From NCBI GenBank assembly GCA_025454755.1, contig JALONV010000011.1, positions 1 to 64,000 of the forward strand: a stretch of 64,000 nt of DNA, read 5' to 3'. The DNA comes from Bacteroidales bacterium. GTDB taxonomy: Bacteria; Bacteroidota; Bacteroidia; Bacteroidales; VadinHA17. Shown one piece after another: positions 33,786 to 63,811 of the stretch (positions within the stretch are counted from its first letter, which is position 1; every line of letters begins with the position of its first letter). A program made the translations under genes and the position numbers. The notes under the pieces were generated by a model that worked only from the letters and a program-made list of their open reading frames with translations, was not told the origin of the DNA and made no database searches.

Positions 33786-33819
33786 CATCATCCTGTAGGC
33801 GTGACAATTTTTTTTTGGT

Positions 33820-33900
33820 CAAAGTTTTGCTTACTCGATTCTGACGTTCATATCTGCAGTCCGAAAAGTAGACACAATAGCTCATCCCGATAACTATGGG
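33820..33900 (+). repeat. Promoter + tRNA 5' remnant, copy C
   Basis: AAAGTTTTGCTTACTCGATTCTGACGTTCATATCTGCAGTCCGAAAAGTAGACACAATAGCTCATCCC aligns to copies at 39040, 40571 and 41175. Confidence 0.7.
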
Positions 33901-33994
33901 AAAATGCAGAAAGCAGTAAACGCTTTCATGAATATGAAGAAGTTTGAGATTGACAAACTTCTCTGACTGAACGTATATTCAACAATAAAAATGA

Positions 33995-34023
33995 AAATCC
34001 CGCACCTCTGAAATGCGGGATTT
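33995..34023. terminator. Rho-independent terminator-like hairpin
   Basis: AAATCCCGCA-cctctgaaa-TGCGGGATTT. Confidence 0.75.
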
Positions 34024-34096
34024 CTACTTCTAAATCACTCTATTTCTTACACACATAAAAAATCTTTTGTTTTTTTTAAAATTTCTGCAAAAAAAC

Positions 34097-34128
34097 TTGA
34101 CTTGTATTATTTAATAGTTATATCTTTG
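34097..34128 (+). promoter_or_regulatory. Bacteroidota-type promoter for the 34170-38934 operon
   Basis: TTG (34097) about 21 nt before TATCTTTG (34121-34128), matching TTTG/TAnnTTTG. Confidence 0.5.
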
Positions 34129-34169
34129 TATAGTTTATTATTTATGAAGTATATAAAACTCTGGTAATC

Positions 34170-34988
34170 ATGGCCCACAAATCAAAAATCAGAATGTCGA
34201 TAGGATGGATCTACCCGATAGGGATATTCTCTTCCTATATATTACTGTTACTTGAATATCAACTCAGGCGGATGCTTTTACAAAACGGAAATGCTGTCTG
34301 GGGAGTACCATACATAACTATAATACTCGTTGCGCTGATGTTCATAGTTTTGGGAATTGTACAATGGTTCCGGTACAGGAACTGGATCTATCCTGTCCTT
34401 GGATTTCTTATGGGTTTAACCATAATACAGGTATCATTCATTTTCCCTGATCATGACAATCCCGGAATATTTGGACTGACCTATTTTATATGCTTCATCC
34501 TGATCATTCTGTTTATTCTCATTAACTGGAACTCTTTATACAGTCACGAAAGATTTGAAATGAACTCGAGGCGGCTTTTTCGTCTTGCTTCCGAGAGGAT
34601 CATCAGGACGGACAATGGCTATACCGAAAGGCCTTATTCGGGAGGGAAAGCAGAGTGCACAAAGGACGAATTACTGGGTTTTGTCAGATTCCTTCATGGT
34701 AACTATATAATAAAACCTTTCTATTACGAGGGCTATGTCTGTCTCTCATTCTCCATGAATACAAGCCTTATTGTTATTCATGAAGGCAAGGAAGTAAGTC
34801 ATGTAATGATCGGGTACGATGGCAGCGTGACGGTTAAGGTATCCGACAAGGATTACATGGACTACCGCGAAAAGCTGAGCTTTGACCAGCTCTGTGCTTC
34901 TCTTGCAGATATCTTCACAAGGTTCCTTGAATATTATAGGAAAGGACTTGAATCAAGAATTATGATCGAATTGAAATCAGCCAAATAA
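34170..34988 (+). CDS. Uncharacterised membrane protein, paralogue of 37503-38321
   Basis: N-terminal TM segments; C-terminal domain FTERP/YTERPYSGG...SFDQLCASLADIFTRFLEYYRKG shared with the second paralogue. Confidence 0.75.
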   Translation: MAHKSKIRMSIGWIYPIGIFSSYILLLLEYQLRRMLLQNGNAVWGVPYITIILVALMFIVLGIVQWFRYRNWIYPVLGFLMGLTIIQVSFIFPDHDNPGIFGLTYFICFILIILFILINWNSLYSHERFEMNSRRLFRLASERIIRTDNGYTERPYSGGKAECTKDELLGFVRFLHGNYIIKPFYYEGYVCLSFSMNTSLIVIHEGKEVSHVMIGYDGSVTVKVSDKDYMDYREKLSFDQLCASLADIFTRFLEYYRKGLESRIMIELKSAK

Positions 34989-34990
34989 TC

Positions 34991-35090
34991 TGGTTGCTGG
35001 TTGCTGGTTCTGAATAATCAGGAAACAAGCAACCCACCTTCGCCAAGGCTTTGGTGGGCAGGCAAGCAACGAGCAACAAGCAGCAAGTAA
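34991..35090. repeat. GCAAC/GTTGC hairpin repeat carrying an internal CCTTCGCCAAGG palindrome (35033-35058)
   Basis: tggttgctggttgctggttc ... aaacaagcaac [cccaccttcgccaaggctttggtggg] caggcaagcaacgagcaacaagcagcaag. Confidence 0.7.
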
Positions 35091-35101
35091 AAAACAGCAC
35101 C

Positions 35102-37498
35102 ATGAAAAGAAATTTTAAATCACCCAAACAAATCCTGCTCACCTGCACGATCCTCCTTTCAGGATTGGCCGGTGCCCAGGATTTGAATCCCTGCAAAACA
35201 GGAGGAAAGACCTGTTATTTCGGGGTGGAAATGAATGATGTCCTCTGCGGATACGCCGTTGAGACTTACTGTGACGGTATGCTTAATGGAAAAGAAGTCC
35301 GGTTTATATACTCGGATGTGATTCTTAAAATGTCAGCCCTGGGTACAGATATGGATGGGGGTTTCAGGTGGAAACATGTTATAGATCCTGTCACTAATAA
35401 AGCCATGGAGATCCAGGTAGATGTAATTAACGGGGAATCGGTCGTTACAACACAAACGAGGATCACCGGTGATACCGCATGGTTCAGCAGTCATACCTCA
35501 GGTGTAAAAAAAGCCATTCACATCGATCCTGATGTGATTTTTACATCTCTATCCTGGTATCCTCATCTTTATAACGATTTCATAAAAATGAAGGGAACGG
35601 AAAAGAGGTATAATGTTTATGATCCGTTAAAAGGAGAAGTTACTCAAATGGGATATGTACTGAAATCAGAAGAAACCATAGAGTTGAGTGATTCTTCATT
35701 CCAAACGATGGTCCTCGAGGAAACAGAATACACTACAGGTATCAAAACCATCCTCTGGTTGAATAAAGCGGACGGTTTTAACGTTAAGGCTGTTGTGGCA
35801 GGAAGAAGAAATATTTATTTCGCCGACAGATCAGTAACCAGCAGGATAACCTTTGCAAATATTGATAATGAACTATTTGCAAAGGTTGACAGGAAAATCC
35901 CTGATATAATGAACCTTTCATGGCTCAGGGTAAAGGCGAAACTCAACTCATACGGCGAAGAAATAACTGAACAGGATCTTAATTACCCGGGACAGAAATT
36001 TGATGGCAAAGTATCCGGGAGTTTAATTGACGGAATATTTGAAATTAAACCAGTCAGGTACACAGGAAAAAACGCCCCGCCTTTTCCTCCGGATTTTAGT
36101 AAATCCCCTGAGCTGATAAAGTATCTCGAACCTGAATTAGTTATAGAATCTGATGATCCGCTGATTATTTCGGAGGCTGCCAGGATTACTGCAGGTTCAA
36201 AAGACTCTTGGGAAGCAGCAGTGCGGCTTGGTAAATGGGTGGCTGAAAATATTGCCGGTGTGTTGCCCGGAGGTATTTCTGCTATTAATACTTTAAAAAC
36301 GCGCGAAGCTGAATGCGGCGGCCATTCCCGGTTGCTAACTGCCTTCTGCAGGGCAGTCCGGATACCTGCCAGAGTGGTTGTTGGCTGTATGTACACCTCA
36401 TATCACTCCGGCGGTTTCGGACAACATGCCTGGACCGAGGTTTACATGGGTGATACAGGCTGGATCCCCCTCGATGCCACTATCAATGAACCGGATTATA
36501 TAGATGCCGGTCATATTAAACTGGGTGAAAAAGCAACCTTTCGTCCGGTAACTATGGAAGTTCTTGACTTCAGGTCACTATCCGATGAATCTGAAACAAA
36601 TATTTCTGACGACATCAGAGCTCTTACAGGTAGCTACATGAACGTTGAATTGTACAGGATGTTTAAGATTATTGAAAGGAACGGCGGTATTGCCATCGAT
36701 ATCCCCGGAAGGGCTGTCCTTGATCTTAATCTGCCTGATAACGAGGGAAAATGGTTCCCAAAAATGACACGGGAAATAAGTCTGAAGCCAGAAAATATTG
36801 AAAAAGGCAAAGCTGATAAAATTATCTTACATCAGTACTTCAGGCTAAGGAAAATGTCATCTCCCGATTCAGTTATTAATAAAATCCCGGAAGAATTCAG
36901 GAAATATGCGGGCAATTATCAGTTTGCTCCCGCCAGGCTTTCTCTGGACGTTATGTTTGACAATGGTGCTCTTACAACACAGGAGCCGCTTGGAAGATCA
37001 AAAGGCAGAGTAAGCTATTTGAAAACGGGTGATTCCTGGATTGACAAGACCGGATCCTATCAGATCGCGTTTATAGCCGGGAATGATAATGAGATAACTT
37101 CACTGAACCTTACAGTCGGGCTTGAATTCCTGAGGGGTGAGCCGGTAACCAACGCAATGGAACCTGTCATTAACCAGTCAGGTGTTGAAGCCGGATTGAA
37201 AAAATATGATGAGATAAAAAGTTCAGGAAACAGCAATTATTTCTTTTCGGAACAAATGCTGCATCAGCTGGGACACAACCTGTTAAAGAAAGAGAGGTTT
37301 GATGACGCCATAATGGTTTTTCTTAAAAATGTTAAGGAATACCCTGATTCATTTATTGCAAATGATGCTCTTGCTGAAACATATATGAAGAATGGAGATA
37401 ACAAGCAGGCTGTCAAATACTTTAAAGCTGCAGTGAAGCTTAATCCGGATTATGAGTATGGTTATAAAATGATTGAAGAACTGAAACAAAAAAAATAA
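35102..37498 (+). CDS. Secreted transglutaminase-like protein with C-terminal TPR
   Basis: Signal peptide from ATG 35102; transglutaminase core ECGGHSRLLTAFCRAVRIPARVVVG...GQHAWTEVYMGDTGWIPLDAT; C-terminal TPR. Confidence 0.85.
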   Translation: MKRNFKSPKQILLTCTILLSGLAGAQDLNPCKTGGKTCYFGVEMNDVLCGYAVETYCDGMLNGKEVRFIYSDVILKMSALGTDMDGGFRWKHVIDPVTNKAMEIQVDVINGESVVTTQTRITGDTAWFSSHTSGVKKAIHIDPDVIFTSLSWYPHLYNDFIKMKGTEKRYNVYDPLKGEVTQMGYVLKSEETIELSDSSFQTMVLEETEYTTGIKTILWLNKADGFNVKAVVAGRRNIYFADRSVTSRITFANIDNELFAKVDRKIPDIMNLSWLRVKAKLNSYGEEITEQDLNYPGQKFDGKVSGSLIDGIFEIKPVRYTGKNAPPFPPDFSKSPELIKYLEPELVIESDDPLIISEAARITAGSKDSWEAAVRLGKWVAENIAGVLPGGISAINTLKTREAECGGHSRLLTAFCRAVRIPARVVVGCMYTSYHSGGFGQHAWTEVYMGDTGWIPLDATINEPDYIDAGHIKLGEKATFRPVTMEVLDFRSLSDESETNISDDIRALTGSYMNVELYRMFKIIERNGGIAIDIPGRAVLDLNLPDNEGKWFPKMTREISLKPENIEKGKADKIILHQYFRLRKMSSPDSVINKIPEEFRKYAGNYQFAPARLSLDVMFDNGALTTQEPLGRSKGRVSYLKTGDSWIDKTGSYQIAFIAGNDNEITSLNLTVGLEFLRGEPVTNAMEPVINQSGVEAGLKKYDEIKSSGNSNYFFSEQMLHQLGHNLLKKERFDDAIMVFLKNVKEYPDSFIANDALAETYMKNGDNKQAVKYFKAAVKLNPDYEYGYKMIEELKQKK

Positions 37499-37502
37499 CA
37501 TA

Positions 37503-38321
37503 ATGTACTTACCAAGAAAATTAAAACAGGACAATAGTATAACAGGTCTCGTACCTGCACTGATATGTCTGTCAATCGGCGCTGTTATATGGGTGTTGAT
37601 CGGTCCGGAGGAAGCATTATTATCAGTTGCCGCGTTTTATTTTTTGTATGCAGGATTCTCATTCTGGATTTTTTTACGGACACGTAATATGAGTTTCCTT
37701 GCGGCTTCTATGTGGCAGTTGTTATTCGGCGTTTTTCTTGTAACACGACCTGACCATCCTTTAATAATCGTACCAGATGAAAAAGTTTCCGGGATGGTGG
37801 TTGTTTTACTTCTGGCTTCAACTGTGTGGCTTCTGTATTTTCTTTTTACGAAAAGAGCAAAATGGAAAGGTCGTGAGGTATTTGAGCTTGCCTCAATGGC
37901 TATTGAACCTCTGCCGGACGGATTTACTGAACGCCCTCGTCCTGCTGGAAGTATCAGTTATACCAGGGATGAGCTTATGGGATTTTCAGCATTCCTGAAC
38001 CGTAACCTGGTAGCAATGCCATATTATGAAGACAATAGTGTTGTCTTCGTTCCTGTAAAAATGGGCGATGAGTTTAGTTTTTTGCTTAATCGTGAAAAGT
38101 TCAGACATAACAGGAGCTGGATAGCATTCGATTTTCATGGGAATGTCACCGTTAATATTTCACGCAAAGATTACCTTGACTATAAGGAAGAACTCTCATT
38201 TGATCAGCTTTGCGGGAATTTCGGGAACTTATTCATTCAGTTCATGGAGTATTACCGGAAGGGTGAAGCTGAAAGAATATTATATAAGCTGAATGAACTT
38301 GGATTGGGTTTAACATCTTAA
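37503..38321 (+). CDS. Uncharacterised membrane protein, paralogue of 34170-34988
   Basis: FTERPRPAGSISYTRDELMGFSAFLNRN...DYLDYKEELSFDQLCGNFGNLFIQFMEYYRKG. Confidence 0.75.
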   Translation: MYLPRKLKQDNSITGLVPALICLSIGAVIWVLIGPEEALLSVAAFYFLYAGFSFWIFLRTRNMSFLAASMWQLLFGVFLVTRPDHPLIIVPDEKVSGMVVVLLLASTVWLLYFLFTKRAKWKGREVFELASMAIEPLPDGFTERPRPAGSISYTRDELMGFSAFLNRNLVAMPYYEDNSVVFVPVKMGDEFSFLLNREKFRHNRSWIAFDFHGNVTVNISRKDYLDYKEELSFDQLCGNFGNLFIQFMEYYRKGEAERILYKLNELGLGLTS

Positions 38322-38334
38322 TCATTTCAGGGCG

Positions 38335-38934
38335 GTGGATTTTAAAGAAGCATCAAAACTCGGCTCATGCCTCTCTAAGGATTATGCCGAAGGTCTTTTC
38401 AGGCTCCTTGTTACATATGAAAGCATTTCATCATCTGAAGCAGCTTCACGTCTGAACCTCCATATTAAAACCGTTCAGGATTTTATGGAAGATCTGTTCA
38501 GCCTTCAGATACTGGACAGGGAAGAAGTATATGAGGGAAAGCGCCCCTATTTCAGATATAAGCTGAAGGTGAAAAAAATATTCTTTGAAATTGACCTGGA
38601 GTCATTTCCCGGGGATGAACCTGTTACTGATGCCAGGTTAAATCTGAAGATCAGGGAAAGAAAGAATGCCGGAGTAAGGTTTACAACATCCAGAAGCAAT
38701 GATTATATAAGTAATGTTGTTATATGGGCGGGTGAAGGCCGTAACCGGACAGAAAGAAAAATCAATCTTTCGATGCCGCAGGGCAAATTCTTATTTCACC
38801 TGCCATTCCCGACCGCTGATTTTATAACCGTAAAGGATATCATGAATAAAGCCGGTATTGATGATACAAATACACCCGAGATTGTTGATATCGTATTTGT
38901 AATGATTGAGTTCGGGGTAATAGAAATCCTTTAA
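38335..38934 (+). CDS. Winged-helix-type predicted regulator (GTG start)
   Basis: LFRLLVTYESISSSEAASRLNLHIKTVQDFMEDLFSLQILDREEV resembles a wHTH; starts 14 nt after the previous stop. Confidence 0.65.
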   Translation: MDFKEASKLGSCLSKDYAEGLFRLLVTYESISSSEAASRLNLHIKTVQDFMEDLFSLQILDREEVYEGKRPYFRYKLKVKKIFFEIDLESFPGDEPVTDARLNLKIRERKNAGVRFTTSRSNDYISNVVIWAGEGRNRTERKINLSMPQGKFLFHLPFPTADFITVKDIMNKAGIDDTNTPEIVDIVFVMIEFGVIEIL

Positions 38935-39039
38935 ATAACAAAGAGGTTAGTCATAATAAGTATTTCCGCCACCTTATCGTGTTTCATAAGTTTAATAATT
39001 TAACGATTGCCGCTATCTTTCTGAATTTTTAAGAATATA

Positions 39040-39145
39040 ATTTTGTGTACTCAATTTTGGAATAAATATCTGCAGTCCGAAAAGGAGACTCAATAGCTCA
39101 TCATGATAACATCAGGTAACTATTGGTACGATTCCCGGTTATAAT
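39040..39145 (+). repeat. Promoter + tRNA-like remnant, copy D
   Basis: ATATCTGCAGTCCGAAAAGGAGACTCAATAGCTCATC matches copy C; downstream acgattcccggttataa resembles a T-arm. Confidence 0.65.
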
Positions 39146-39194
39146 AATTTAATGAAAAAGGGTATTAATCGTTTTTTTTAATTAAGATTTATTT

Positions 39195-39237
39195 ATTACG
39201 CATTATTGCGTTACGCATTTATGCGTATATTTGTAAT
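39195..39237. repeat. Upstream flank repeat of the ATPase gene, overlapping a TATATTTG promoter element
   Basis: ATTACGCATTATTGCGTTACGCATTTATGCGTATATTTGTAA. Confidence 0.7.
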
Positions 39238-39250
39238 TCAATTTCAAAAA

Positions 39251-40372
39251 ATGATAAAAAGAGAGAATCCCTTCAGGTATGGAATAGCTGTTGACTATCC
39301 CTATTTTGTTGACAGAGAGCAGGAATTGAAAGATTATTCAAAATGGCTTATCTCAGGTCAGAGTCTTGTTATCTACTCACCGCGCCGTTACGGGAAGACC
39401 TCCCTGATGCTCAAGCTTCTGAGGAAGCTTAAGCAGGAAGGGTATCATACTGTGTATATAGACTTTTTCAGGGTCACTTCACGGCGTCGTTTTGGAGAGC
39501 TGTATTATTCGGAAATATTGAAACAGCTGCCTTCGTGGCAAAAAACTATTAAAAAACTCTCATCGTTAACAATGAGGATCAGGCCTGTTATTTCAATTGA
39601 TGAGCAGGGAATGCCGGTTGTCAGCCTGAAATTCGGAGAGAGTCCCGGTTCTGAAGATATTACAGAACTGTTTGATCTGCCACAGAAACTGTCTGATAAA
39701 AAAAGATGGATAATAGTTTTTGATGAATTTCAGGAGATAAACCGGCTGAATGGCGACAGTTTCGAAAAGGAGATGAGAGCTTCGCTGATACATCATACGA
39801 ATGTGGGTTATGCATTTCTTGGTTCAAAGATGCATATGCTTCTGAATATGTTCACTCATGAGAACAGGGCATTTTATCAGTTCGGAAGAATTACTGAATT
39901 GAAAAAACTTCCTTTTAAAATTATGGAAGAATATTTGGAATCGGGATGTAAGAAAACAGGCATAAATATTAAAGAAGGTATTGCTGCCGGCATTATAAAC
40001 ACATGTGAGGCAATTCCTCATTATATCCAGTATCTTGCTTCGGCTTCGTGGGAAGAAGCTATTGAAAGTAAAGCAGATATCGATGAAGTTGTTCTGAGAA
40101 AGGCGGTGCAGAAAATATTAATCAACCAGACGGATTATTTTACTTCTCAATATGAGAGGCTTACATTGCATCAACAAAATGTACTGAAAGCCATAAGTAT
40201 AGAAAATAAGAACATTTTCAATACAGAATTCATGGAGAAATACAATCTGAATGCAATTTCATCTGTTCAGAGATCTGTGGAAAGGCTTTTAGCTGAGAGC
40301 ATCATTGTAAGGCAGCAAAACACATATTTATTTACAGATCCTTTTTTTAAAATGTGGCTCGGCACCGTATAA
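39251..40372 (+). CDS. AAA/STAND-type ATPase (archaeal ATPase-like family)
   Basis: NPFRYGIAVDYPYFVDREQEL, Walker A SPRRYGKTSL, Walker B WIIVFDEFQE; likely start is the internal ATG at 39251. Confidence 0.85.
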   Translation: MIKRENPFRYGIAVDYPYFVDREQELKDYSKWLISGQSLVIYSPRRYGKTSLMLKLLRKLKQEGYHTVYIDFFRVTSRRRFGELYYSEILKQLPSWQKTIKKLSSLTMRIRPVISIDEQGMPVVSLKFGESPGSEDITELFDLPQKLSDKKRWIIVFDEFQEINRLNGDSFEKEMRASLIHHTNVGYAFLGSKMHMLLNMFTHENRAFYQFGRITELKKLPFKIMEEYLESGCKKTGINIKEGIAAGIINTCEAIPHYIQYLASASWEEAIESKADIDEVVLRKAVQKILINQTDYFTSQYERLTLHQQNVLKAISIENKNIFNTEFMEKYNLNAISSVQRSVERLLAESIIVRQQNTYLFTDPFFKMWLGTV

Positions 40373-40388
40373 AAAGTGACCAACCTAT

Positions 40389-40430
40389 ATTACGCTATAT
40401 TGCATTACGCATATATGCGTAATATTTTTA
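40389..40430. repeat. Downstream flank repeat of the ATPase gene
   Basis: ATTACGCTATATTGCATTACGCATATATGCGTAATATTTTTAA, same orientation and layout as 39195-39237. Confidence 0.7.
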
Positions 40431-40576
40431 AACCTTTAGAACAGCTTTAAAAGAATAGGTGATAAGTTAAGCGTGTGTAACGTATCAGACAAGATTGTCG
40501 AAGTCAAAATAAAAGATAATGAGAAAGTATTAAATTGCGTCTGGAAATTAGAATCATGCTAATTTTGATAACAAAG

Positions 40577-40608
40577 TTTTGCTAACTCAAATTTGACGGT
40601 TATATTTG
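40577..40608 (+). promoter_or_regulatory. Promoter preceding tRNA-like copy A
   Basis: TTTTG (40577-40581), 19-nt spacer, TATATTTG (40601-40608). Confidence 0.6.
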
Positions 40609-40699
40609 CAGTCCGAAAAGGAGGTGCCATAGCTCAGTCGTCCCGTTCCGCAAGGCGGAACGAGGATCCACGAAAAACAAAGCAAATCAGAGATTTGCT
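40601..40699 (+). repeat. 99-bp direct repeat, copy A (promoter -7, tRNA 5' part, D-arm palindrome, AGCAAATC hairpin)
   Basis: Matches 41205-41303 base for base by my reading (offset 604). Confidence 0.9.
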
Positions 40700-40812
40700 T
40701 GCCATAGCTCAGTCGGTAGAGCAATGTTCCGATAGCTATCGGAATGAAAATCCATGTGTCCCCGTCCCGATAACTTCCCGATAACTATCGTGAGGGACGA
40801 TTCCTGGTGATC
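40699..40812 (+). pseudogene. tRNA-Phe(GAA)-like pseudogene with palindromes replacing parts of the anticodon and T arms
   Basis: TGCCATAGCTCAGTCGGTAGAGCAATG[ttccgatagctatcggaa]TGAAAATCCATGTGTCC[cgtcccgataacttcccgataactatcgtgagggacg]ATTCCTGGTGATCA. Confidence 0.7.
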
Positions 40813-40848
40813 AAAAAATCGATAATATTTACATTACATAAATTTACA

Positions 40849-41142
40849 ATGCAGATATTCTGTTATATCATTTATAGTGAAAGTATTGATCGATATTACA
40901 TTGGGTATACAACCGATATAAATGAGAGACTAAAGCTTCATAATGCCGGTCATTTTGGCGGTAAATCATATACTTCTAAGGCTACGGATTGGCTGATATT
41001 TTTATTAATTCCATGTGAGTCAGTGGAGCAGGCTATTTTTGTGGAGGCAAGGATAAAAAAGATGAAGAGCAGGAAATATATTGAAGATCTTATAAAGTAT
41101 CCAGAGATGATCAACAGGCTCAGGAATGACTTCAATAAATAG
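40849..41142 (+). CDS. GIY-YIG endonuclease domain protein
   Basis: FCYIIYSESIDRYYIGYTTDINERLKLHNAG...; start at internal ATG 40849. Confidence 0.88.
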   Translation: MQIFCYIIYSESIDRYYIGYTTDINERLKLHNAGHFGGKSYTSKATDWLIFLLIPCESVEQAIFVEARIKKMKSRKYIEDLIKYPEMINRLRNDFNK

Positions 41143-41204
41143 CTCATCCCTGGAGGCCTGGTGAATTTTTAAGGGTAAAGTTTTGGTAACTCAAATTTGA
41201 CTTA

Positions 41205-41303
41205 TATATTTGCAGTCCGAAAAGGAGGTGCCATAGCTCAGTCGTCCCGTTCCGCAAGGCGGAACGAGGATCCACGAAAAACAAAGCAAATCAGAGATTT
41301 GCT
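41205..41303 (+). repeat. 99-bp direct repeat, copy B
   Basis: Same as 40601-40699; preceded by TTTTG-N19-TATATTTG. Confidence 0.9.
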
Positions 41304-41319
41304 CACTTCTTTAAATTGC

Positions 41320-41392
41320 AAAACCCGTAAGATCAACGTCTTGCGGGTTTTTGTTTTAAAGATGGTGATAGAATCGGTGATAGTTTTTGTAA
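41320..41392 (+). repeat. Terminator-containing direct repeat c1 (partner at 49954-50026)
   Basis: AAAACCCGTAAGATCAACGTCTTGCGGGTTTTTGTTTTAAAGATGGTGATAGAATCGGTGATAG. Confidence 0.8.
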
Positions 41393-55009: not shown

Positions 55010-56437
55010 TTGTTGAGAAAGGAAACCTGGTTTTATATAGCTCTTGCAGGAATATTCATGCTGATCATCTGTCATTCATGGCTTTCCTACGGGATGTTCA
55101 TGGATGGAACTATCTATGCAACTCTTTCCAGAAATCTTGCGAACGGATCAGGAACTTTCTGGCAACCACATTTCACAGATACTTTATTTCCAGTTTTCGT
55201 TGAACATCCCCCGCTTGCCTTTGGAATTGAAGCTATCCTCTTCAGTATATTCGGAGACAGCAGGTTTGTCGAAAGGTTTTATTCTCTCCTGACAATCTTT
55301 ATTACCGCTATTACTATAATTTCAATCTGGAAGCTGATTCTGAAAAAACCATCAACCGGGTGGATCCCCGTATTATTATGGATCACAATGCCATCCGTTA
55401 ACTGGGCATCTGTAAACCATATGCTTGAGAATACACTGATAATATTTATATGCCTGTCAGTTTTGTTCTATATTAAAAGTCTGCAATCAAAAAGGATATT
55501 ATTCCTTTCCCTGGCTGGAATAATGCTTTCCCTCGGGTTCCTGACAAAGGGATTCGTCACCTTCACCCCGCTGGCTTTTCCGTTCTTCCTGTGGTTATTT
55601 TTAAGAAATAACAGATTCCCATCAATGGTTTTAGACACTATAATAATATTAATTTCAGCCATTCTCCCATTGATCCTGCTTTATCTCTTTACCGGGGCAA
55701 GAGAGTTCCTTCCGCAGTACATAGAATTTGCTTTTACTAAAATTTCAACGGGGGTAACCGCATCCTCCCGCTTTTATATTATATACAGGCTTGTAATGGA
55801 ATTGCTTCCGACCATCGGAATAATTCTTGCATTCATGCTTTACTGTTGGATAAAGAAGCTCTCTTTTTTTAAAATAAGTTCAAGCCTGCGTCTTGCTTTG
55901 GCATTTTTCTCACTTGGACTGGCAGGAGTGTTGCCAATATTGACTACAATGGACCAGAGTACCTATTTTCTTCTTCTGAGTCTGCCATTTTTTGCAATCT
56001 CACTTGGCCTGTTAGTGAATCCTTTAATTGAGATCCTGCTTGAAAGAATAGATTATAATTCAAAAGGGTACAGACTCTTTAAACTTTTTGGAGCAATAGC
56101 CCTGTCAGCCGGAATTGTACTTTCTGTTTATTTCTCGGGAAATTATAACAGGGATGAAAACATGTTGAAAGATATGAGATCTATCCTGGCAGAGCTTAAA
56201 GAAAACAGCACAATAAATATCTTACCTGAGATGTATGACGACTGGAGTCTTTATGCTTACTATGCGAGATATAAAAACATAAGCCTGGATCCCGATCTTA
56301 ATAACAGGCATGAGTTTCTACTTATCAGAACATCATTTTATTCTGACACATTAAATAATGGGTTTGAGAAAATAGATCTGGAAACAACAGAATATGATCT
56401 GTTCAGAAGAAAAATCTCAGACACCGTTAATAACTGA
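55010..56437 (+). CDS. ArnT/PMT-like membrane glycosyltransferase
   Basis: SYGMFMDGTIYATLSRNLANGSGTFWQPHFTDTLFPVFVEHPPLAFGIEAILFSIFG; many TM segments. Confidence 0.85.
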   Translation: MLRKETWFYIALAGIFMLIICHSWLSYGMFMDGTIYATLSRNLANGSGTFWQPHFTDTLFPVFVEHPPLAFGIEAILFSIFGDSRFVERFYSLLTIFITAITIISIWKLILKKPSTGWIPVLLWITMPSVNWASVNHMLENTLIIFICLSVLFYIKSLQSKRILFLSLAGIMLSLGFLTKGFVTFTPLAFPFFLWLFLRNNRFPSMVLDTIIILISAILPLILLYLFTGAREFLPQYIEFAFTKISTGVTASSRFYIIYRLVMELLPTIGIILAFMLYCWIKKLSFFKISSSLRLALAFFSLGLAGVLPILTTMDQSTYFLLLSLPFFAISLGLLVNPLIEILLERIDYNSKGYRLFKLFGAIALSAGIVLSVYFSGNYNRDENMLKDMRSILAELKENSTINILPEMYDDWSLYAYYARYKNISLDPDLNNRHEFLLIRTSFYSDTLNNGFEKIDLETTEYDLFRRKISDTVNN

Positions 56438-56470
56438 TTCTTTCTCTTTAAAGGTGTCTCTAAGTCAATT

Positions 56471-56605
56471 TTAACCGCAAAGTGCGCAAAGCCCGCCTTC
56501 GCTGAAGCTCCGGCGGGTAGATCCACGCAAAGGACGCAAAGTTAAGAGTCCGATATTTAAAACTTTGCGATCTTTGCGGAAACTCTTTGCGACCTTTGCG
56601 GTTAA
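56471..56605. repeat. GCAAAG/CTTTGC inverted repeat with internal palindrome at 56492-56517
   Basis: TTAACCGCAAAGTGCGCAAAG[cccgccttcgctgaagctccggcggg]...CGCAAAGGACGCAAAGTT pairs with AACTTTGCGATCTTTGCGGAAACTCTTTGCGACCTTTGCGGTTAA. Confidence 0.8.
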
Positions 56606-57375
56606 TGGATTTCAAGGAAGCCCGATATTGTTGAGAAATCCCCCACTTTCTTCAATTCTGCTATCAGTTTTTCAAATCTTTCTGATAATAAGCTTCCTGA
56701 AAAGGTTTTAAGATATCCCGGAATTTTAATTGAACCAAGTTCAGCAAATTCCCAGGGATGAAAATACAGATGCAGATAAGAATCCTTCCGAATCGTTTTC
56801 TTGCACATATGTAAATATACAGGAAAAGGAATGTTTTTAAAGCTCAGCCAGAAAAGCGGGAATCGTATTACAGGGCTTACCGAAACCGGGATTTCAATCA
56901 ATCCTGTCCTGATATCATGATAAACTCTCCTTTGAGTGAACAGATTATTATACCTTCCCGGAATAAGTGTGGGGTTGACAGATGAGTCGTAATGATATCC
57001 TGCTGCTTTAATTAGTGAAAGATCGGTTTCCCTGAAATGGGGCATACGGAAACCATTGATCTTTTTCCCGGTTATTCTCTCAATTTCTGTTTTTGAGTCT
57101 GAAGGATCAGTATCCTTGAAACCAGAATGGCATTTTGAATGTGATGCTATTTCATGATTTTCTGAAAGGTCCATAATAAGTTCTTTATTCTTTTCAGCAT
57201 AAAATGAAGTCGTGAAAAATGTAGAAGGTAAATTGTATTTCAATAGTAATCCGGTAAGCCTTCGCAAACCGATATTTGAAATGTTTATTTGATCCTCTTC
57301 TGAGATCGGGCAGCCAAATTCAAGAGGAAGATCAAATTCCTCCAGGTCAAAGGTTAATAGGATTTGCGGCTTCAA
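56602..57375 (-). CDS. Polysaccharide deacetylase (NodB-like)
   Basis: LLTFDLEEFD, NHEIASHSKCHS, GFRMPHFRETDLSLIKAAGYHYDSS. Confidence 0.87.
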   Translation of the reverse strand: MKPQILLTFDLEEFDLPLEFGCPISEEDQINISNIGLRRLTGLLLKYNLPSTFFTTSFYAEKNKELIMDLSENHEIASHSKCHSGFKDTDPSDSKTEIERITGKKINGFRMPHFRETDLSLIKAAGYHYDSSVNPTLIPGRYNNLFTQRRVYHDIRTGLIEIPVSVSPVIRFPLFWLSFKNIPFPVYLHMCKKTIRKDSYLHLYFHPWEFAELGSIKIPGYLKTFSGSLLSERFEKLIAELKKVGDFSTISGFLEIH

Positions 57376-58073
57376 TTAAAAAGCAATTTCAGTAAACTAA
57401 TTGTCTCTTTCAGTAAGATTCTGAACCTGAAATTAGTGAATTTAATGTTTTGCCTGCAGCTGACATTTATAAATTTATATGTAAGCCCCTGCTTTAAACT
57501 GTTTTTCAGAAATTCAAGCTCGAAAAGAAATGTGTTGGTTTGTGTGCCCGACAGCACTTTTTTTGCCCTGTTGTCAAGACCCTTAAGACCAGCCTGCGTA
57601 TCTTTTATTTTAAATCCGGTGACAAAAAAGTTAAGTTCCTTCAGCAAAAATGAATAAATCCTTCTCTTAAGTGGAAGTATTCTGAAGTAAGATGCGTCCC
57701 TTGTGCCGATAACAATATTTGTTTTTGATGTTTTTAAGATCTGGTAAGCCTGATAAATTATCTGGTAACCAAAAGGGAAGTCTATATCTGTATAAATATA
57801 GAAATCAGCTTCTGACGCGTTTATCCCGTATCTGATTGCATATCCCTTACCCCTGTTGACCGGATATGAATAATATTTTACATAATTGAACCGGTTAATT
57901 ATGCTTTCCATTTTATTAATCTGAATGGTTGAACCATCATTTACGATGATTACCGTGAATTCGGTTTCTTTTAATTTCTTTTCGAGTTCTGACAGGTGGT
58001 CAGCGAATTGGTTTTCCCATCCGGCATGAGGATTAAACAATGGAATAATGATATTTAGTTTATCTCCCGGCAT
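57372..58073 (-). CDS. Glycosyltransferase family 2 (dolichyl-phosphate glucosyltransferase-like)
   Basis: IIIPLFNPHAGWENQ...VIIVNDGST, NRGKGYAIRYGI, YIYTDIDFPFG; overlaps the deacetylase by 4 nt. Confidence 0.87.
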   Translation of the reverse strand: MPGDKLNIIIPLFNPHAGWENQFADHLSELEKKLKETEFTVIIVNDGSTIQINKMESIINRFNYVKYYSYPVNRGKGYAIRYGINASEADFYIYTDIDFPFGYQIIYQAYQILKTSKTNIVIGTRDASYFRILPLKRRIYSFLLKELNFFVTGFKIKDTQAGLKGLDNRAKKVLSGTQTNTFLFELEFLKNSLKQGLTYKFINVSCRQNIKFTNFRFRILLKETISLLKLLFN

Positions 58074-58260
58074 TATTCAGCATAAACAAAGAATCTGATT
58101 AAGCTATTCTCATAATTTCAAAAATACTTATTTTTTGGTTAATTACCTGATTTGAAAAGAGCGATCACTATCGCTATCACACTTACTCTTTTACTTCTGC
58201 AAGTCAATTTGCTTTCCTCTCCCCTAAATGGTACTTTTACAGCCTTATATAATGTTTCTC

Positions 58261-63445: not shown

Positions 63446-63525
63446 ATTCCACCATCCGGTAAGAATGGGGTAGAAGTTCTTTCTGATAATCAAATACTAA
63501 AGAAACCATCAGTTATAATGTTACG

Positions 63526-63576
63526 CCCGGATGGTGGAATTCCCGCTGCGCGGGACAGGGTCCGACACGCAGGACA
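63526..63576 (+). pseudogene. Partial tRNA-Leu copy with palindrome in place of the D-loop
   Basis: GCCCGGATGGTGGAAT[tcccgctgcgcgggacagggtcc]GACACGCAGGAC versus intact GCCCGGATGGTGGAATGGTAGACACGCAGGAC. Confidence 0.8.
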
Positions 63577-63605
63577 TGTTTTTTTGATATATTTGATTGT
63601 ATTCA

Positions 63606-63723: not shown

Positions 63724-63807
63724 GCCCGGATGGTGGAATGGTAGACACGCAGGACTTAAAATCCTGTGACCATAACGGTTGTGCGGGTTCAAGTCCCGCT
63801 CCGGGTA
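63724..63807 (+). tRNA. tRNA-Leu(TAA)
   Basis: GCCCGGATGGTGGAATGGTAGACACGCAGGACTTAAAATCCTGTGACCATAACGGTTGTGCGGGTTCAAGTCCCGCTCCGGGTA; long variable arm. Confidence 0.95.
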
Positions 63808-63811
63808 CAGC

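Follow-up and report, generated by a model that had tools for sequence, protein, structure and literature searches.

The window analysed here is a 64,000-nt stretch of a contig from a Bacteroidales bacterium, and it contains a four-gene transglutaminase (TGase) operon, an ATPase gene and a gene for a GIY-YIG endonuclease, interspersed with copies of a short repeat in the order C-TGase-D-ATPase-A-GIY-YIG-B (Table 1). A repeat search of the window recovered one family with four members, all on the + strand, with D, A and B matching C, taken as the reference, at 68 to 76%. Copies A (40573 to 40699) and B (41177 to 41303) have a longer unit in common, which matches at 97% over 127 nt, and a 33-nt core, TTTGCAGTCCGAAAAGGAGGTGCCATAGCTCAG, has exact matches at 40605 and 41209 (chance expectation, 0.00). 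The four co-oriented copies reported in an earlier note on this DNA are therefore real, and its description of C and D as decayed also holds, the tRNA 5' end being decayed in C and the promoter and hairpin in D. BLAST placed the whole core at only these four positions in the 2.93-Mb assembly, the remaining matches being at chance level or limited to the D-loop hairpin portion in other tRNAs (contigs C103 and C158), and we thus rejected the reading of the core as an ordinary genome-wide promoter.

Table 1. Features of the repeat array and of a dead tRNA-Leu copy in the window.
Feature	Position	Strand	Basis
Repeat family member C	33810-33894	+	Repeat search
Repeat family member D	39026-39110	+	Repeat search
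Repeat family member A	40562-40646	+	Repeat search
Repeat family member B	41166-41250	+	Repeat search
Copy C: tRNA-Phe promoter, decayed tRNA 5' end (33870-33884), D-loop palindrome TCCCGATAACTATGGGA (33885-33901)	33821-33901	+	Repeat search; relatives
TGase block, four genes: 34170-34988, 35102-37498 (transglutaminase), 37503-38321, 38335-38934	34170-38934	+	Pfam; beside tRNA-Phe in G015
Copy D: decayed tRNA-Phe promoter, 5' end, decayed D-loop hairpin, T-arm trace (GATTCCCGGT)	39037-39139	+	Repeat search; G015 alignment
Left terminal repeat of ATPase block (TTACGCA..TGCGTA)	39194-39227	+	Inverted-repeat search
ATPase_2 family ATPase gene	39251-40372	+	PF01637; 85% identical gene at intact tRNA-Phe in G010
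Right terminal repeat of ATPase block	40391-40424	+	Repeat search
Copy A: tRNA-Phe promoter, tRNA 5' GGTGCCATAGCTCAGTCG (40623-40640)	40573-40640	+	Repeat search; genus search
Double-hairpin element in D-loop of copy A, second arm truncated	40641-40699	+	Fold and arm comparison; full form at same place in G023
Dead tRNA-Phe after A, nearly full-length; hairpins in anticodon arm (40727-40744) and T-loop (40764-40798)	40700-40809	+	Sequence
GIY-YIG endonuclease gene, 97 aa	40849-41142	+	PF01541, E=1.5e-10
Copy B: tRNA-Phe promoter, tRNA 5' end (41227-41244)	41177-41244	+	Repeat search; alignment to relatives
Double-hairpin element of copy B, truncated at same base as A; rest of tRNA missing	41245-41303	+	Sequence, folding
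Native tRNA-Phe 3' flank and terminator	41304-41354	+	Matches flank after intact tRNA-Phe in G009
Dead 5' copy of tRNA-Leu(TAA) with D-loop hairpin	63525-63600	+	About 200 nt upstream of intact tRNA-Leu 63724-63808

When a promoter/tRNA-Phe query was searched against 58 genomes of the genus, matches were obtained in 38, with the clearest promoter matches at 83 to 91%, and ARAGORN called an intact tRNA-Phe(GAA) in 24 of the 30 retrieved loci (the window being one of these). In a typical relative, the intact tRNA-Phe(GAA) stands directly behind the same promoter, and the copies in the window must therefore correspond to this promoter plus the 5' part of the gene. On sequence comparison, C, D, A and B are shown to be tRNA-Phe promoters followed by the first 14 to 18 nt of the tRNA, as the earlier note had proposed. 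No intact tRNA-Phe was found in the genome's own assembly (2.93 Mb), so the A/B junctions may be partly collapsed. Each dead copy bears a hairpin in its D-loop; those of C and D are of a short palindrome type that also occurs in relatives (G002, G026, G041, G004, and G053), the hairpin of C having the same position as in the first four of these and G053 carrying a D-like fossil. The nearly full-length dead tRNA-Phe behind A has a similar layout in G004. Directly after the hairpin of C, a short ORF (MQKAVNAFMNMKKFEIDKLL; 33904 to 33966) resembles the C-terminus of a larger protein and is followed by a terminator.

In most relatives, the gene for an M16 peptidase starts about 105 nt from the promoter, which is followed by a single tRNA-Phe. 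Such "empty" sites with one intact tRNA-Phe, which the earlier note had envisaged, occur, for example, in G045, G011, G018, G001, G032, and G035. Other relatives carry single blocks: the four-gene TGase operon (72 to 85% protein identity) lies directly upstream of an intact tRNA-Phe in G015, the ATPase gene (85%) occupies this position in G010, and a GIY-YIG gene (61 to 68%) does so in G009, G041, G026, and G002, with a broken one at tRNA-Phe in G005. Contiguous alignments run from the TGase block through the promoter of D to the G015 tRNA-Phe, from the ATPase through A to the G010 tRNA-Phe, and from B through the terminator flank to the G009 tRNA-Phe region, so that each of D, A and B has its counterpart in the tRNA-Phe of one of three single-block arrangements. 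As each block is found alone beside an intact tRNA-Phe elsewhere, these alignments support the view that the window would be a stack of three blocks seen singly in relatives. An ancestral long array from which blocks were lost by recombination between tRNA copies fits equally well, and the identities do not separate the two histories.

In the three GIY-YIG relatives sequenced on both sides (G026, G041, and G002), the order is dead tRNA-Phe, GIY-YIG gene, and promoter with intact tRNA-Phe, which matches A/GIY-YIG/B in the window, and the left-hand dead tRNA-Phe has the hairpin TCCCGATAGCTATCGGGA in its D-loop. Direct repeats of the tRNA thus flank the insert and an intact tRNA is kept, as at a tRNA-targeted integrative element. 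No left-hand fossil was found beside the TGase operon of G015 or the ATPase of G010. The earlier proposal of repeated insertion at a tRNA gene, with one 5' fossil left per event, consequently stands in its first part, given the stack, the 5' remnants and the empty sites, whereas the rule of one fossil per insertion is shown only for the GIY-YIG and hairpin-only units. Two further points alter the proposal: on its left the array ends at an inversion breakpoint, and the ATPase carries its own terminal repeats. The breakpoint is marked by the M16 peptidase gene, which is at 58228 here and about 105 nt from tRNA-Phe in relatives. Gene order from 33820 to 64000 is inverted with respect to relatives; one breakpoint falls on the 5' flank of tRNA-Phe, and the genes at 55010 to 58073, the M16 gene (58228), tRNA-Gly and tRNA-Leu are downstream and reversed.

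The ATPase gene (39194 to 40424 with its flanks) lies between TTACGCATATATGCGTAA-type inverted repeats, and G023 has a solo copy of the terminal palindrome at the same place, without the ATPase; together these repeats suggest that the ATPase is a separate mobile unit. The TGase gene is present in only 4 of the 58 genus genomes, and the possibility that the block is a general core gene was rejected on this ground; in G021 and G022, no tRNA-Phe was seen on the stretch read. Both the TGase operon and the ATPase look like passengers that would have been trapped between successive tRNA-Phe copies.

The five closest genus homologues of the GIY-YIG gene (61 to 68%) all adjoin tRNA-Phe, and the association extends to other isotypes. 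Nineteen of the 30 GIY-YIG loci retrieved in the genus are within 500 nt of an intact tRNA on the same strand (rough binomial p of about 4e-32 under uniform placement), and the other flank of the gene is often a 5' or 3' fragment of the same tRNA. Two layouts recur, one with a dead tRNA 5' copy, the GIY-YIG gene and an intact tRNA (Phe and Pro) and one with an intact tRNA, the GIY-YIG gene and the 3' fragment of that tRNA, often with an anticodon-arm hairpin (Met, Asn, Lys, and Val). In the Pro units (L239, L244, L265, L162, and L171), a dead tRNA-Pro 5' copy and a double hairpin precede the GIY-YIG gene and the intact tRNA-Pro, and in L239 the GIY-YIG reading frame continues into the tRNA 5' half. 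The tRNA-Phe GIY-YIG genes appear to be under purifying selection, with dN/dS values of about 0.13 to 0.22 where computable, which are approximate because dS is near saturation. On contig C23 of G000 (locus L248), a dead tRNA-Pro, a double hairpin and a GIY-YIG gene are followed by a tRNA-Pro without its middle, the D-loop being joined to the acceptor end.

The element inserted in A and B is invertible and has the form TCCCG-arm-CGAGGATCC(T/A)CG-arm-CGGGA, with its midpoint between CGAGGA and TCC(T/A)CG and with the second arm truncated in both copies. G023 carries the full element within a dead 5' copy; the remainder of a decayed tRNA comes next, and after it an intact tRNA-Phe. A pattern of tRNA D-stem plus TCCCG had 25 matches in 13 of 117 genomes of the family; the reversed-pattern control had 3, none of them in those 13 genomes. 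Every one of the 25 matches falls in a tRNA 5' copy. Where the contig does not break off, each is followed by an intact tRNA of matching identity, A and B being the exceptions. The tRNAs concerned are Phe, Met(CAT) types, Val, Arg(TCT), Ala(GGC) and a case called as Gly(CCC), with Lys and a Leu variant in addition and, from element loci, also Pro, Asp, and Arg(ACG). In most cases the intact tRNA comes next after a dead 5' hairpin copy, and in some a GIY-YIG gene separates the two; tRNA-Leu(TAA) provides a further case within the window, and G045 has two tandem dead tRNA-Leu 5' hairpin copies.

Searched as a free pattern, the element was found in 29 of the 117 family genomes, with >20 matches in some (23 in G084) and 0 control matches, whereas a phylum search of 396 genomes gave, among the 395 other members, a single weak and dubious GC-rich match; the exact double-hairpin pattern appears to be nearly confined to the family (29 of 117). 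Matches that could be named included Bacteroidales MAGs, with sporadic ones in a Saprospiraceae MAG and two Candidatus Magasanikbacteria MAGs. In one locus of the last group (L211, a Patescibacteria MAG), several double-hairpin-like elements share one contig, and one of them is upstream of tRNA-Val. Ten full elements and the truncated copy in A fold with z values of −4.2 to −8.7, and the arms keep their complementarity while their sequences change, differing in length and failing to align by sequence (MAFFT). The arms are 84 to 95% alike between different tRNAs in different species and in both orientations, which points to a mobile element. tRNA D-loops account for about half of the distinct elements inspected and short tandem repeats for most of the others, so hairpin insertion may be independent of GIY-YIG. 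At L228, L230, L237, L256 to L263, and L271, the elements lie within tandem repeats of about 7 to 9 nt (e.g., TTCGTGG), often between direct repeats.

REP/BIME sequences are palindromic elements mobilised by RAYT (Y1_Tnp). The double hairpin resembles them as a short, invertible inverted pair in multiple copies, with no target duplication apparent, and differs in that the tRNA D-loop is a main target. The element was near none of 30 Y1_Tnp loci, and the element-bearing genomes G084 and G069 had no Y1_Tnp match; RAYT was rejected as its mobilising enzyme for want of association with these loci.

We consider it probable that all four copies are tRNA-Phe fossils left by repeated GIY-YIG-linked duplication and palindromic insertion, with the TGase and ATPase genes as passengers. 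Each copy would originally have been a promoter with its tRNA-Phe. The GIY-YIG endonuclease would cut the tRNA gene, and recombination repair between tRNA copies would duplicate the segment, with or without the endonuclease gene, so that repeated events would have copied the promoter and tRNA-Phe downstream. Palindromic elements would insert into cut or redundant copies and destroy the tRNA, probably together with the cut site; the older copy would in this way be inactivated by a hairpin in its D-loop, and selection would keep one intact copy. The segment A-GIY-YIG-B would represent the youngest event, a GIY-YIG-linked duplication. Counting against this model are the predicted enzyme, a bare 97-aa GIY-YIG domain, the G015 and G010 cargo without a left fossil, and the many hairpin-tRNA units without GIY-YIG.

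It is rather unlikely that the array arose by plain tandem duplication of tRNA-Phe through slippage or unequal crossing-over, with surplus copies decaying and attracting a REP-like palindrome, the TGase, ATPase and GIY-YIG genes arriving independently and GIY-YIG being a passenger instead of the driver. Hairpin units without GIY-YIG are indeed common, tandem dead copies without it exist in G069, G065, and G045, and hairpins also occur outside tRNAs; however, GIY-YIG genes are at tRNAs far above chance, in many cases flanked on both sides by pieces of one and the same tRNA, and appear to be under purifying selection.

The remaining explanations are all improbable. The 5' pseudo-tRNAs with their hairpins could be functional leader RNAs, regulators or decoys kept by selection and not fossils, as their stable folds (z of −4.2 to −8.7), the maintained complementarity of the arms and their co-direction with an intact tRNA would allow, but C and D have decayed and lie a long way from any tRNA, such units are missing from many relatives, and the arms are common to unrelated tRNAs and also occur outside tRNAs. 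In a comparison with Rfam, moreover, only tRNA matches reached the gathering score, with no riboswitch, leader or other curated RNA.

A shade less plausible again are classical integrative elements that used tRNA-Phe as the attachment site for a tyrosine or serine recombinase and whose integrase has since been lost. Integrases favour tRNA genes as targets, and the array shares with tyrosine recombinase islands the tRNA fragments that bracket accessory genes as direct repeats and the intact tRNA that is kept. It differs in that the promoter and 5' end are duplicated and not the 3' end, and in that its blocks are small (0.3 to 5 kb) and without recognised plasmid or phage genes; nor was any recombinase found among the main ORFs of the window scanned with Pfam, in agreement with the earlier note. 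The lack of a recombinase there, the D-loop hairpin in each dead copy and the GIY-YIG family tied to tRNA genes together argue against classical site-specific integration. Least probable of all is an assembly artefact, in which the collapse of a pseudo-tRNA/tRNA repeat would account in part for A and B; this would fit their stopping at the same base, the assembly without an intact tRNA-Phe, the contigs (C18, C20, and C85) whose ends lie 79 nt upstream of tRNAs for Ala, Met, and Lys and those that end inside such units (C103, C151, and C158), but not the fact that C and D are independent of the A/B assembly or that relatives show the same order with an intact right-hand copy.

GIY-YIG-linked duplication has a precedent in SegB of phage T6, a GIY-YIG enzyme that cuts tRNA genes and amplifies tRNA and segB units in tandem by recombination (PMC13096335); SegB of T-even phages is described there as a free-standing GIY-YIG homing endonuclease at tRNA genes (PMC13096335; Brok-Volchanskaya 2008 cited therein). 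The likeness lies in gene type and layout, with a GIY-YIG gene adjoining tRNA genes and tandem units of tRNA and endonuclease, and it extends to the Y, YIG-type motif, R and E positions, which are kept in five aligned GIY-YIG sequences, and to the tRNA-Phe alleles with and without GIY-YIG in the genus, where tRNA-Phe would be the target. A process of this kind acting in a chromosome would produce layouts like those reported here, surplus copies being inactivated by hairpins. Unlike SegB, the genes here are chromosomal and in Bacteroidota, encode a bare 97-aa domain, are accompanied by hairpins in dead copies and involve many isotypes, with no phage seen.

We tentatively suggest, as a possibility short of an even chance, a new class of tRNA-gene parasite, in which a GIY-YIG unit and an invertible double hairpin split tRNAs at the D-loop or anticodon loop and an intact copy is kept, in many isotypes of one Bacteroidota family and in Candidatus Magasanikbacteria, and which could trap genes between tRNA fossils. 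Literature searches of open papers returned no description of such a system. The proposed duplication and insertion would join tRNA fossils, orphan GIY-YIG genes and palindromic repeats, which are usually treated apart, in one testable process that would stack genes at a tRNA without an integrase, would explain the small GIY-YIG genes at tRNA genes in these bacteria and would be the chromosomal equivalent of the tRNA amplification that SegB drives in phages. The tRNA gene fragments of prokaryote annotation have been described as partial and probably nonfunctional tRNA genes (PMC9897764), as the dead copies here seem to be, and the abstract of that work does not include hairpin-bearing 5' copies beside GIY-YIG genes.

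A mobile CCCGATARCTATCGGG palindrome was also considered as the sole cause of the dead copies and was rejected as insufficient by itself, since it has about a dozen sites in the genome, most of them outside tRNAs. In several genomes (L102 to L107 and L109), a palindrome, TTCCGATAGCTATCGGAA, is nested in another intergenic inverted repeat (ACCACAAAG..CTTTGTGGT).
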